From Bacteroidota bacterium (GTDB lineage: Bacteria > Bacteroidota > Ignavibacteria > Ignavibacteriales > Melioribacteraceae), in the NCBI GenBank assembly GCA_018818165.1, contig JAHISP010000060.1, positions 1-64,000 of the forward strand: DNA of 64,000 bases, read 5' to 3'. The notes beneath the pieces are model-generated. The model had not been told where the DNA came from. It did no database searches and saw nothing but the letters and a program-made list of their open reading frames with translations. Position 1 is the stretch's first letter, and each line of letters begins with the position of its first letter. The position numbers were made by a program, and so were the translations under genes. This document shows positions 1-6,246 of this stretch, in pieces.

Positions 1-346
1 ATTTTTCTGTTTCTTCAATAACTATTTCTGGAGCAACCAATGTTTCTGGTTCTTCAACTGCTGGTTCTGAAACATCCAATTTTTCTGTTTCTTCAATAAC
101 TATTTCTGGAGCAACCAATTTTTCTGCTTCTTCAGCTACTAATTCTGGAGCATCTAATTTTTCTGATTCCTCAACTTCTAATTCTGGAGCATCTAATTTT
201 TCTGCTTCCTTAACTGCTGGTTCTGGAACATCTAATTTTTCTATTTCTTCAACTGGTGGTTCTGAAACATCCAATTTTTCTGATTCTTCAACTGTTGGTT
301 CTGAAAAATCCAATTTTTCTACTTCTTCAACTGCTGGTTCTGGAAT
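1..346. repeat. 39-bp in-frame tandem repeat, about nine copies
   Basis: The period is exactly 39 bp (13 codons) and it encodes the acidic tail of the BMC-domain protein. The coding-strand unit contains GAAAAATTGGATG or close variants, with most changes at the residue before EKLD and around PEP. Two units encoding APEIVIEET are nearly identical, which suggests recent duplication by slippage or recombination. The array continues past position 1. Confidence 0.95.
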
Positions 347-730
347 AGTAGTATCATTAAATTCATCAACATCATCAAATAACGATACTATTTTTTCAGG
401 TTCAACCTTTTTAACCTTTTTTTCTATTTTTGGACGTTTTGGACTTTCTTTAGATTTTTTATCTAAAATTATATCTAAAATATCTTTACCTGGATTTTCA
501 ATTAAAGAACTAGAAATTACAATCCCAACATTTTTGGCAGCAATTTCACCTGCTTGTAAAACTCTTCTTAAATTAGGAATGTTACCTTCAATAAAAACAG
601 TAACTTGTCCATTTGAAATAACTTCTTTCTTCAAGAATTTAGTGCCACCTAATTTTAACATTACTTCAAGTGCAGTAATTGCAGAAACTAATCCATTTGT
701 TTCTATCATTGCTATTGAATTAAATTCCAT
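1..730 (-). CDS. BMC-domain shell protein with long acidic 13-residue repeat tail (3' end outside window)
   Basis: Residues 1-85 match the bacterial microcompartment shell fold (BMC, PF00936 type): an IETNGLVSAI start, a central TVFIEGN strand and an AGEIAAKNVG helix. BMC proteins form flat hexamers that tile a protein shell around enzymes. After a basic linker (KKSKESPKRPKIEKKVKK) the chain runs from residue 129 into at least nine units of 13 residues with consensus xPEPxVEExEKLD, still open at the window edge. Ordinary BMC-H proteins stop near 90-100 residues, so the tail is unusual. Start chosen at 730: GGGAG lies 6 bases upstream; an in-frame ATG at 742 would add four residues and has no ribosome site. 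The gene is followed upstream on the same strand by housekeeping genes, not by microcompartment enzymes, though the left side is unseen. Seen: domain and repeats. Inferred: shell role; the tail may bind cargo, other shell proteins or be a flexible spacer. Confidence 0.85.
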   Translation of the reverse strand, partial: MEFNSIAMIETNGLVSAITALEVMLKLGGTKFLKKEVISNGQVTVFIEGNIPNLRRVLQAGEIAAKNVGIVISSSLIENPGKDILDIILDKKSKESPKRPKIEKKVKKVEPEKIVSLFDDVDEFNDTTIPEPAVEEVEKLDFSEPTVEESEKLDVSEPPVEEIEKLDVPEPAVKEAEKLDAPELEVEESEKLDAPELVAEEAEKLVAPEIVIEETEKLDVSEPAVEEPETLVAPEIVIEETEK

Positions 731-808
731 ATATGCTCCCATGATTTTGAAATTTAATACAAAAATAGATTATTCGAAAAATAATGTCAATCAAAATGTG
801 CTCCCAAA

Positions 809-1231
809 CTAGTTAATTGATTCAAGATATTCTTTTAATATAATTGCTGCTGCGTTCTTATCAACTAATCCTTTATCTCTTCTTTTCTTTTTTGAAGTAA
901 CACTTTCTAAAACTTGCTGTTGTGCAATTACGGATGTATATCTTTCATCAATTAAAACAATTGGAATTTTTGTATGTGTTTCTAATTCTGTTTTAAATTT
1001 TTCAATTAAATCAGTACTTGATGAGCGCTCACCGCTTTCTTTTAATGGATAACCTAAAACTATTGTTTCAATATCATAATCAATAAAAAGCTGATTGAAA
1101 ACTTTCCAGAAATTATTATCATTTTGTATAGTTACAAGAGCATATGCAAAAATTCTTAAAGGATCTGTAATTGCAATTCCTACCCTTTTTTCACCAAAAT
1201 CTATTCCTAATAACCTTTTTTGTTCAAGCAT
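809..1231 (-). CDS. ruvX: RuvX/YqgF family Holliday-junction resolvase-like nuclease
   Basis: The 140-residue protein has the RNase H-like fold signature of the RuvX/YqgF family: LGIDFGEKRVGIAITDP at the N-terminus, then LGYPLKESG, IDERYTSV and a late DKNAAAIILKEYL containing the conserved acidic residue. Family members act in RNA processing (16S pre-rRNA 5' end in E. coli) and are proposed resolvases. Length is normal (about 135-150). It sits 73 bp downstream of the RelA/SpoT gene and 78 bp before the BMC gene on the same strand, so it may be co-transcribed. Identification is secure; which of the two activities matters here cannot be read from sequence. Confidence 0.93.
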   Translation of the reverse strand: MLEQKRLLGIDFGEKRVGIAITDPLRIFAYALVTIQNDNNFWKVFNQLFIDYDIETIVLGYPLKESGERSSSTDLIEKFKTELETHTKIPIVLIDERYTSVIAQQQVLESVTSKKKRRDKGLVDKNAAAIILKEYLESIN

Positions 1232-1304: not shown

Positions 1305-3476
1305 TTAAGACGTGGCATCAAATCTTTCTACATGAAAGATATTTTTATTTTTCTTTAAACGTTCCATTAATCGAGTTAAATGATCCAAATCATTAACATA
1401 AACAGCAACTGTTCCAGAAAATACTGAATCTTTTGTACTAATATTAATTGATTTGATATTAGAATTATTAAAACTAGTAATAGTATTTGAAATAAATGTT
1501 AAAAGTCCAGGTTTATCCTCGCCACGAATAGTAATACCAGCAACAAATGATGCTCCCTTATCAGTTGACCAATTTACTGGAATTAATTTGTGCTCTGCAC
1601 TTTTTACCATATGAATTAAATTATGGCAATCGCGGCGATGAATTTTAATTCCTTCACCAATTGTAATATATCCAACAACAGGATCTCCTGGAATTGGATT
1701 GCAACAACGGGCAAAATTATGATCAATACCACTATATTCCTTATCAACAATAATTCCTTTATTGGAACTTCTAGCTAATGCTGCAAAATCATCAAATTCC
1801 AATTCATCCGCTAGCTTTTCCTCAAGTTTTTCTGTTGGATTAATTATTTCATCTAAATTTAGACTATTATGCGCAATTGCAGTAAAAAATTGATTATAAT
1901 TATCAAACTTTAGCTTTCTAACAATTTTATTTAATTCATCAGATTGAAAAACTTTTTTAAGCTTCTTTAACTTCTTTTCCCAAATCTCCTTACCATTTTC
2001 AATTATTCTTTCCTCTTCAAGATTTATATACTTACGTATACTAGTTTTAGCTTTATGAGTTTGAACAAATTGGAGCCAGTTTTTATTTGGTTTTTGATTT
2101 TTGGAAGTAATTATATCTACTTGATCGCCACTATGGAGCATGGTATTTAGTGGGACAATTTTACCATTAACCTTAGCTCCTATACAATTATATCCAACCT
2201 TACTATGTATCTCAAAAGCAAAATCTACTGGAGTAGATTTCTTTGGTAATCTTCGTAAGTCTCCTTTAGGAGTGAATGCGTAAATCTCGTCCTGGTAAAG
2301 ATTTAGCTTAAAACTTGTAAGAAGTTCTTTTGGTGCATCGGTCTTCTCAACATTCTGAAAAATGTCTCTAACCCAATTTACCCAATCCTCCATTTCAGAA
2401 TCATTTTGATTAAAATTCTCTTTATATTTCCAATGAGCTGCAACTCCCTTTTCGGCAATTTCATGCATTTTACGAGTTCTTATTTGAATTTCAACATGTT
2501 TGCCTTCGGGACCAATAACAGTATTATGAATTGACTGATAATTATTTTTTTTGGGAATAGAGATGTAATCTTTAAATCTATCTATTGGGTTATAAAGCTG
2601 GTTTACAACACCTAAAACATAATAGCATTCATTGGGATCATTACTCTCGATTATAATTCTAATTGCTAGTAAATCATATATATACTCTATTGTAGTATTT
2701 TGTTTTAATAGCTTTTTAAAAATAGAATAAATATGTTTAGCTCTTCCGGTAATTTCAAATTTAAGACCATGATCCTTTAATTTTTGTTCCAAGGGAGCAA
2801 CAAATTTTTTAATATATGATTCCCTTTCTTTTCGCTTACTATTTATCTGTTTAGCTATTTGCTCATATTCATTATGGTTTAAATATTTAAAAGATAAATC
2901 TTCTAATTCCCATTTTATTTTACCAAGACCAAATCTGTTTGCAAAGGGAGCATATATTTCCATTGTTTCTTTTGCAATTCGTCTCTGTTTTTGTTGTGGT
3001 ACAAATTCCAATGTGCGCATATTGTGTAATCTATCAGCAAACTTCACTAAAATTACTCTAATATCTTTTATCATTGAAAGAAGAAGTTTTCTATAATTTT
3101 CAGCTTGTGTTAAATCTTGCCCTGTAAAAACTCCGCTAATTTTAGTAACGCCATCAACAATTTCTGCAACTTCAGGGGAAAACTCTTCGGCAATAAAATC
3201 TATACTAAATTCTGTATCTTCAACAACATCATGGAGCAAGGCAACCACAACCGAAATATCATCAAGTGGCATTTCACTTGCCACAATTAATGCTACATTA
3301 TATGGGTGAAGAAAGTATGGTTCACCCGAAGATCTGATATTATCTTTATGTGCTTCAAAACTTAGTTTAAAAGCTCGTGAAATCATATCTTCATCAACTT
3401 CATTTAGATGAGCTTTACAGACTTTTATTAGTTCTTCAAGCAATTCTTTTCGATATTTTTCTGTTAATTCAATCAC
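1305..3476 (-). CDS. Bifunctional (p)ppGpp synthetase/hydrolase, RelA/SpoT family
   Basis: The 723-residue protein makes and degrades the stringent-response alarmone. The N-terminal HD hydrolase looks intact: FLHPYNVA (H57), LLHDVVEDT (H82-D83) and KFADRLHNMRT (D148). The synthetase domain (about 240-370) carries RFKDYISIPK and VEIQIRT, the latter with the catalytic glutamate. A TGS domain (DEIYAFTPKG, about 395-455) and a C-terminal ACT domain (from about 650) complete the long Rel architecture. The start is GTG at 3476, because there is no in-frame ATG until residue 31, inside the first helix. With both active sites present it is probably the main Rsh enzyme of the cell. Confidence 0.95.
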   Translation of the reverse strand: MIELTEKYRKELLEELIKVCKAHLNEVDEDMISRAFKLSFEAHKDNIRSSGEPYFLHPYNVALIVASEMPLDDISVVVALLHDVVEDTEFSIDFIAEEFSPEVAEIVDGVTKISGVFTGQDLTQAENYRKLLLSMIKDIRVILVKFADRLHNMRTLEFVPQQKQRRIAKETMEIYAPFANRFGLGKIKWELEDLSFKYLNHNEYEQIAKQINSKRKERESYIKKFVAPLEQKLKDHGLKFEITGRAKHIYSIFKKLLKQNTTIEYIYDLLAIRIIIESNDPNECYYVLGVVNQLYNPIDRFKDYISIPKKNNYQSIHNTVIGPEGKHVEIQIRTRKMHEIAEKGVAAHWKYKENFNQNDSEMEDWVNWVRDIFQNVEKTDAPKELLTSFKLNLYQDEIYAFTPKGDLRRLPKKSTPVDFAFEIHSKVGYNCIGAKVNGKIVPLNTMLHSGDQVDIITSKNQKPNKNWLQFVQTHKAKTSIRKYINLEEERIIENGKEIWEKKLKKLKKVFQSDELNKIVRKLKFDNYNQFFTAIAHNSLNLDEIINPTEKLEEKLADELEFDDFAALARSSNKGIIVDKEYSGIDHNFARCCNPIPGDPVVGYITIGEGIKIHRRDCHNLIHMVKSAEHKLIPVNWSTDKGASFVAGITIRGEDKPGLLTFISNTITSFNNSNIKSINISTKDSVFSGTVAVYVNDLDHLTRLMERLKKNKNIFHVERFDATS

Positions 3477-5768: not shown

Positions 5769-6002
5769 ATGGCAACGCTAACAAAACGGGCAACTATTTA
5801 TTTTGACCCACAAATTCATCGAACATTAAAAATGAAATCGGTTGAAGTTTCTAAGTCTTTATCAGAGCTAATAAATGATATTGTTATAAAAGAACTTTCT
5901 GAGGATAAAGAAGATTTAGCTTCCTTTGCGGATAGAGTATCAGAACCATCAATAAGTTATGAATCGATGTTAAAACAACTTAAAGCTGATGGCAAAATAT
6001 AG
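5769..6002 (+). CDS. Type II antitoxin, ribbon-helix-helix family
   Basis: The 77-residue protein begins KRATIYFDPQIHRTLKMKS, a beta strand followed by helices typical of CopG/RelB-type ribbon-helix-helix DNA-binding antitoxins. The C-terminal half (ASFADRVSEPSISYESMLKQL) resembles the RelB-like toxin-wrapping segment. It overlaps the downstream RelE-family toxin gene by 14 bp, which fits the usual antitoxin-first order and translational coupling. A promoter and palindrome lie directly upstream. Confidence 0.85.
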   Translation: MATLTKRATIYFDPQIHRTLKMKSVEVSKSLSELINDIVIKELSEDKEDLASFADRVSEPSISYESMLKQLKADGKI

Positions 6003-6246
6003 AATTGAAATTAAAAAATCTGCTGTTAAAGAGATTTCTAAATTGCCAGTTATTGACTTGAAAAAAATACTAAAAGAGATAGAATCACTAACTGATAATC
6101 CAAGACCTTTTGGAGCAATAAAACTTTCGGGTGATGACAAATATAGATTAAGAGTTGGTAGTTACAGAATACTTTATCAAATATTTGATAGCAAATTAAT
6201 AGTAACTCTAGTAAAAATTGGTCATCGAAAAGATGTTTACAAATAG
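5989..6246 (+). CDS. Type II toxin, RelE/ParE superfamily
   Basis: The 85-residue protein has the compact RelE/ParE pattern: YRIEIKKSAVKEISKLP at the start, NPRPFGAIKLSGDDKYRLRVGSYRILYQI in the core and VKIGHRKDVYK at the end. The RVGSYRILY strand and the terminal HRKDVY are characteristic of RelE-like mRNA interferases that cut mRNA on the ribosome; a ParE-like gyrase poison is less likely because those lack the GHRKDVY end. It is translated from a start inside the antitoxin gene. Confidence 0.87.
   Translation: MAKYRIEIKKSAVKEISKLPVIDLKKILKEIESLTDNPRPFGAIKLSGDDKYRLRVGSYRILYQIFDSKLIVTLVKIGHRKDVYK

Follow-up and report, generated by a model that had tools for sequence, protein, structure and literature searches.

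A tailed BMC-H protein of Melioribacteraceae with a conserved, predicted Rho_N/SAP-like terminal domain, a possible anchor that outlived its microcompartment shell

On balance, we consider it probable that the tailed BMC-H protein encoded at the beginning of the window (the whole 64,000-nucleotide stretch analysed, from contig C9 of the source genome G000) is an EutK-like positioning tile that outlived its shell and would now serve as a multivalent nucleic-acid-binding hub. The protein joins a single BMC domain to a long tail and a conserved terminal domain, its gene keeps a syntenic neighbourhood, shell partners are absent from the searches of its genome, and the conservation of the terminal domain is decoupled from that of the BMC domain; from these observations we infer nucleic-acid binding, oligomer formation and, in the relatives, a role in positioning. 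EutK is the precedent for a BMC-H protein with an end domain of the nucleic-acid type; what is new is the terminal domain, the location among housekeeping genes and the fact that the protein has repeatedly survived without pentamers.

The minus-strand open reading frame at 742..2 codes for 247 amino acids without a stop up to the window edge, which is the first base of contig C9 and thus a contig edge rather than the end of the gene. An internal start (MEF...) fits the end at 730 given by the initial annotation of this DNA, and a further ATG lies upstream at 742. The features are as follows:

1..742, minus strand: 5' part of the tailed BMC-H gene, an open ORF truncated where the contig stops, with its start ATG at 742 or 730
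491..718, minus strand: BMC domain (PF00936), residues 9-84, from hmmscan; motifs as defined in PMC8217296
398..487, minus strand: basic linker, about residues 86-115, read off the translation
371..385, minus strand: SLFDD short motif, which recurs in the tails of relatives
1..345, minus strand: acidic tandem array with a 39-bp (13-aa) unit, 8.8 copies in the window, from TRF; it goes on into C45
C45:9092-9820 of the same assembly, minus strand: remainder of the tailed BMC-H gene, with array and C-terminal domain
809..1231, minus strand: upstream neighbour, which from family knowledge we take to be ruvX (yqgF); ORF and conserved synteny, context only
1305..3476, minus strand: upstream neighbour, presumably a relA/spoT-type gene; ORF and conserved synteny, context only, used as tree marker

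The first 118 bases of the window are identical to the last 118 bases of C45, an exact end overlap that probably arose because the assembler cannot pass exact repeats. The shortest join of C9 and C45 gives a protein of 450 amino acids, consisting of the BMC domain, the linker with SLFDD, 17.6 repeat units, a helix-like stretch (SHLERLRAEAK...) and the C-terminal domain MNVHELRKLARNNPNFPIKGREISKANRSLLLNYFDEIL, and in the genus members G001, G002 and G003 (the genus comprises G000-G004) an equivalent architecture occupies one uninterrupted open frame of 300-412 residues. Residues 9-84 of the window protein match PF00936 (43 bits, cut-off 24.5, E 4.6e-11), in agreement with the single BMC domain that the initial annotation had placed at residues 1-85. 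Its at least nine acidic units of 13 residues were likewise recovered, as 8.8 in-frame copies in the window (83% matches, 0% indels, score 382), and the array, as it had proposed, runs on at the window edge and resumes on C45; in the shortest join it makes 17.6 units of 229 aa in all with a net charge of -74, a copy number to be read as a lower bound because exact repeat copies presumably collapse in assembly. With 0% indels in the array the frame is kept and there is no frameshift between tail and BMC domain, which rules out the case that had been raised against the reading, namely that the tail belongs to a separate gene or follows a frameshift. The plus-strand frame 3-812 is open antisense across the BMC-H gene, and we treat it as a by-product of the repeats because the orthologues back the minus strand. 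What could not be seen in the window is the end of the protein, which finishes not in the repeat but in a conserved domain behind the array that is predicted to be folded.

The usual arrangement in the order Ignavibacteriales is a short BMC-H followed by a tailed BMC-H with the terminal domain, in the cluster order relA-ruvX-[BMC-H]-BMC-H-ybbR-tmk, and by synteny and terminal domain the window gene is the second, tailed BMC-H; G000 has the same gene order, split across two contigs. We mapped 37 loci in 36 genomes (two of them in G050): ruvX is the direct upstream neighbour in 34, relA is found upstream in 33, and ybbR is downstream in 17 of the 18 loci with at least 500 bp of downstream DNA. 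The intervening short BMC-H is absent in G001, G002, G003, G039, G105 and G097, and the genome search of G000 found no second BMC. The relA-ruvX neighbourhood is conserved but not fixed, since in G044 (L103) and at L122 and L124 the BMC-H pair lies away from these genes (more than 8 kb upstream without them), L124 also being without ybbR. The nearest orthologues in GTDB records are L113-L115, from MAGs titled Ignavibacteriales or Melioribacteraceae, and the other nine matches there carry various Ignavibacteria labels and, in one case, Chlorobiaceae. G137 (L041/L116) has a canonical BMC-H pair plus a genus-like tailed BMC-H on the short contig C277, which contains a run of N; the latter shows 62% identity over residues 59-124 to the genus-type protein, and C277 is probably a stray contig of this genus in the G137 bin.

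Relatives that carry pentamers usually show four PF00936 matches, made up of two BMC-H and one two-domain BMC, frequently together with three pentamer genes, at scattered places, which fits the description of FRAG-type microcompartments in PMC8217296. By its position the window gene is the orthologue of the second, tailed BMC-H of these scattered FRAG-type microcompartments of Ignavibacteriales. In its own genus the picture is reduced to one PF00936 match each in G000, G001, G002 and G003 and none in G004. One search of 58 genomes found PF03319 pentamers in 48 of them and in none of the five genus members that it included, and G000, rated 100% complete, has no PF03319 match, no FRAG-type pentamer triplet and no PF00936 match other than this protein, so that the stand-alone BMC protein suspected in the initial annotation is what the recommended look for further BMC and pentamer genes returned. 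In a wider sample of the order, pentamers are present in 119 of 146 genomes; among the 27 genomes without them (7 named by subtraction from a listing), 19 match the tailed-BMC profile, including G130 whose tail runs off its contig, seven have no match, and G103 has two weak ones. A RelA tree with 33 rows requires eight or more changes in pentamer presence, and 5 when the doubtful rows m118 (whose pentamer status was assumed in the first count), G035, G097, G129 and G131 are left out, m121 being G014.

All genus members are draft assemblies, and one might ask whether the partners are missing only through incomplete metagenome assembly. Elsewhere in the order this seems to happen: G122, G130 and G139, in which no pentamer was found, are 78-87% complete and carry near-canonical tiles, and they are probably just incomplete. 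As an account of this genus it is extremely improbable, since pentamers are absent from all five members, rated 90-100% complete, and incompleteness cannot cause decay of the BMC domain.

In another pentamer-less genus, G100, G114 and G046 (L072, L075, L076) retain the short BMC-H along with the tailed one, the contact motifs being lost in both, so the BMC-H pair as a whole, rather than the tailed tile alone, can persist after the shell is gone. G035 (L105) has a single pentamer beside a separate BMC cluster near C1:3218000, where a 187-aa BMC-H shows 33% identity to E. coli EutK over residues 4-161, through the EutK C-terminal domain; an EutK-like protein thus coexists with a decayed tailed BMC-H in one genome. 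PduL (PF06130), considered as a marker of the ancestral organelle, was uninformative, with matches in 2 of 25 genomes.

By comparing the tailed proteins with and without pentamers, we found that their two domains follow different courses. Among 58 pentamer-bearing genomes, mean pairwise identity is 0.70 for the tailed BMC domain and 0.67 for the 33-residue terminal core; between 16 pentamer-less genomes and those 58, it is 0.36 for the BMC domain and 0.65 for the terminal core (G122, G130 and G139 left out, the terminal row of G137 taken from C277). None of the 16 exceeds 0.51 in mean BMC identity, and the lowest ordinary pentamer-bearing value is 0.60, with G035 (0.36) and G137 (0.35) as exceptions and with the left-out pentamer-less G122 and G139 at 0.76 and 0.66. 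At the level of sequence identity, the BMC domain drifts without pentamers while the terminal domain does not. The statistical link between pentamer loss and BMC decay is only suggestive, because it comprises 3 independent pairs (sign test p 0.25).

The decay extends to the surfaces by which tiles would meet. The hexamer-hexamer contact motifs are replaced in all four gene-bearing genus members, the window protein having KLGG and ENPG, and the R79 position is N, Y, N and N in G000, G001, G002 and G003, respectively. Part of the contact triad, R79 is retained in 41 of the 61 tailed rows from pentamer-bearing genomes (at least two of these 61 without the terminal motif) versus 1 of 18 from pentamer-less ones, and its loss alone proves little because Q stands there in 13 of the 61. 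The BMC fold itself seems preserved, as the G001 orthologue, modelled in place of the window protein, matches PduA 4ppd (E 1.8e-9, TMt 0.85), with means over 10-residue blocks of 91-97 for residues 1-80. On that ground the protein could still build a shell-like body, a sheet or tube without pentamers, which we regard as quite improbable: the contact motifs are replaced, G000 has no other shell protein that we could find, and the title of PDB entry 4p2s ties the Asn-Arg-Lys triad to shell assembly.

The strong divergence of the BMC domain might instead mark the protein as a relict in decay, left over from a lost microcompartment and without a function today, and G004 is without any match. NG86 dN/dS of the BMC domain within the genus ranges over 0.18-0.65, the pairs with G001 giving 0.52-0.65, in keeping with decay, and those among G000, G002 and G003 giving 0.18-0.21, which speaks against it, as does the terminal domain with 0.06-0.21 over all six genus pairs; dS is near saturation for both domains. 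The gene is moreover an intact single ORF in G001, G002 and G003, is open in both contig parts of G000, and is retained in several separate pentamer-less genera, so we consider the relict improbable.

The conserved part of the tail is its terminal domain, which is present as a single copy in the genomes of 27 of 30 relatives and missing in G004, G034 and G042. A model from 11 aligned rows has four helices (mean pLDDT 88.9), and in the full G001 model the block means are 94-96 over the last 40 residues, the tail before them lying mostly below 50 save for a helix at 207-227. Aligned with 31 PDB chains, the terminal-domain model has Rho N-terminal or FAN1 chains in the top seven rows (Z 4.2-5.5, rmsd 1.6-2.1, 41-44 residues; best Rho 5.5, best FAN1 4.7), followed by a row of Z 2.4, with Z 5.5 being middling by the tool's scale, on which matches are firm only from Z 8. 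The FAN1 chains align over residues 464-504, which we take to be the SAP domain of FAN1, and 4rea, titled only as a nuclease DNA complex, aligns there too. Foldseek alone gave a weak match (E 2.8). No Pfam model scored above its gathering threshold in the 11 members; below it, Rho_N was the family touched by more members than any other, appearing in 4 of 11 (best E 0.011), with SAP in 1 (E 0.053), and the lowest single E of one member, 0.0066, went to the unrelated family YfmQ. HHalign of the terminal-domain profile (89 rows) against E. coli Rho reached a best probability of 1.0%, unrelated proteins reaching up to 1.7%, and the PDB sequence search returned chance-level matches only (best E 0.22, fumarases included). 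It seems that the domain is Rho_N/SAP-like and not a member of either family, an assignment that the structural model supports but does not prove.

In the 33-residue core, R6, R10 and R20 are present in 76 of 76 rows and position 27 is R or K in 76 of 76; the invariance at R6, R10 and R20 is partly built in, because the rows were chosen by a pattern fixing R6, R10, G19, R20 and I22 and restricting positions 5, 15 and 16. The main rival of our reading is that the terminal domain is a protein-docking module for one conserved partner, for example a cargo enzyme or a protein encoded in the relA-ruvX-ybbR-tmk neighbourhood. The conserved gene neighbourhood, the single copy in most genomes and the lack of a Pfam family above threshold would suit such a module, and the nearest folds, which belong to nucleic-acid-associated domains, and the near-invariant basic residues (partly imposed by the search pattern) argue against it; we think it rather unlikely.

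Outside Ignavibacteriales, the terminal domain was found in 31 more of the 296 genomes of the phylum searched (58 in all), other classes included. Of these 31, 20 were sampled and the protein was read in 18: a BMC profile match lies in the same ORF in 12, and a BMC-like sequence precedes the domain, by eye, in 5. The remaining one, G333 (L164, another class), has a terminal-domain protein whose N-terminal half is without a PF00936 match, perhaps another instance of decay beyond Ignavibacteriales.

Returning to the preferred reading of a positioning tile that outlived its shell, the closest likeness is EutK (PF16365, PDB 3i71), which has one BMC domain, a linker and a small C-terminal domain for which nucleic-acid binding has been proposed (PMC12058022, PMC12487888). 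In Salmonella eutK deletion mutants, Eut compartments are found mostly at the poles and move less, and a ParB-like role through the positively charged tail domain was suggested (PMC12487888). EutK is also the best NCBIfam match of the window protein, which without its C-terminus scores 55.6 bits (cut-off 218) over model positions 3-108 of 166, that is, the BMC part and linker; a canonical tailed relative scores 94.3. The likeness stops short of the terminal domain. In blastp, EutK aligns with the tailed proteins mainly in the BMC part and, in G027 and G116, into the low-complexity tail, PF16365 is absent at E 1 or better from nine of nine full tailed proteins (the G000 C-terminus not among them; the E. 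coli EutK control scores 90.1 bits), and HHalign of the terminal domain against one EutK gives a probability of 0.3-1.3%. PF16365 absence and the HHalign null rule out that the terminal domain is EutK's own domain. EutK further differs in belonging to the eut operon with a full shell, whereas the window protein stands alone, has a far longer tail and ends in a domain whose best fold matches are Rho/FAN1. The oligomeric state of EutK is given as hexamer by inference (PMC12487888) and, for E. coli EutK, as monomeric (PMC12058022), which means that hexamer formation cannot be taken for granted in a tailed BMC-H.

In the relatives, the tile probably sits in the shell, and the Rho_N/SAP-like head on its flexible tail would most likely hold the organelle to nucleic acid (nucleoid or RNA), and so set its position, the part proposed for EutK in Eut compartments, here played by another fold. 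In this genus, where the adjacent BMC-H, the BMC-T and the pentamers appear to be gone, the tiling residues have decayed and the terminal domain is no less conserved than before, the protein probably functions shell-free, its BMC domain forming an oligomer that would present several heads on long acidic spacers. Conservation of the head where no shell partner was found suggests a role independent of the shell and probably linked to nucleic acid. Extended to several Ignavibacteriales lineages, this becomes a tentative proposal that we would advance only as a possibility: the organelle was lost and its EutK-like nucleic-acid-binding anchor was kept as a free-standing oligomeric hub on a BMC scaffold, nucleoid-associated or RNA-gathering, whose tail could grow freely by tandem duplication.

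To our knowledge, how most microcompartments are placed in the cell is an open question. A tile with a conserved, putatively Rho_N/SAP-like head in a fairly fixed housekeeping neighbourhood is a concrete candidate for organelle anchoring, and the lineages that lack pentamers and keep the head offer a natural experiment parting the shell role of the tile from its other role; they suggest an anchor of a lost organelle kept for another job. FRAG-type microcompartments, called enigmatic in PMC8217296, resemble the relatives in their scattered shell genes and often three pentamer genes; they differ in that the sections of that paper covered here make no mention of the terminal domain, and in that no other shell gene was found in this genus. 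With PduA/EutM-type BMC-H the protein shares the BMC fold (PF00936; PduA 4ppd for the G001 orthologue), but its contact motifs are replaced, its tail is long, it has an extra domain and no shell partners were found. McdA/McdB positioning of carboxysomes resembles the function inferred for the relatives in placing an organelle relative to the nucleoid; McdA and McdB are separate proteins, whereas here the tile itself would carry the anchor. Searches of the open-access literature on microcompartments, judged by titles and beginnings of abstracts, brought up no description of a BMC protein with a Rho_N/SAP-like domain.

Unlike the terminal domain, the tail varies among relatives in length and charge. 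The acidic array is particular to G000: G002 has other units, and the tails of G003 and G001 are acidic without the G000 unit (net charges of -31, -57 and -54 in G001, G002 and G003). With tail borders approximate, the median charge per 100 residues is -0.5 in 15 pentamer-less genomes including G001-G003, versus -10.9 in 61 other rows, one of which is the C45 fragment of G000. The acidic repeat, stressed in the initial annotation as a possible functional element, is therefore not supported as the functional core, because the unit varies and the charge is not kept beyond the genus; the best reading of the repeats is a local elaboration. The accompanying remark that BMC-H extensions are short or second domains was incomplete, given the C-terminal domain of EutK (PMC12058022, PMC12487888) and the long C-terminal extensions, up to 200 residues, reported in PMC8217296.

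The recurring features of the spacer are two short motifs, not repeats. [ST]LF[DESG] occurs in 23 of 76 tails (shuffled mean 0.63), and the helix-like [ILVM]x[RK]L[RK]xEA in 29 of 76 (shuffled mean 0.04), where it begins 35-77 residues ahead of the terminal core, as seen for example in L038, L039 and L040; the latter is perhaps an internal docking helix. Elsewhere in the window, beside der, a 77-aa ORF overlaps a ParE-type toxin ORF (PF05016, 43.4 bits) on the plus strand at 5769-6246, and the pair is likely a type II toxin-antitoxin system.
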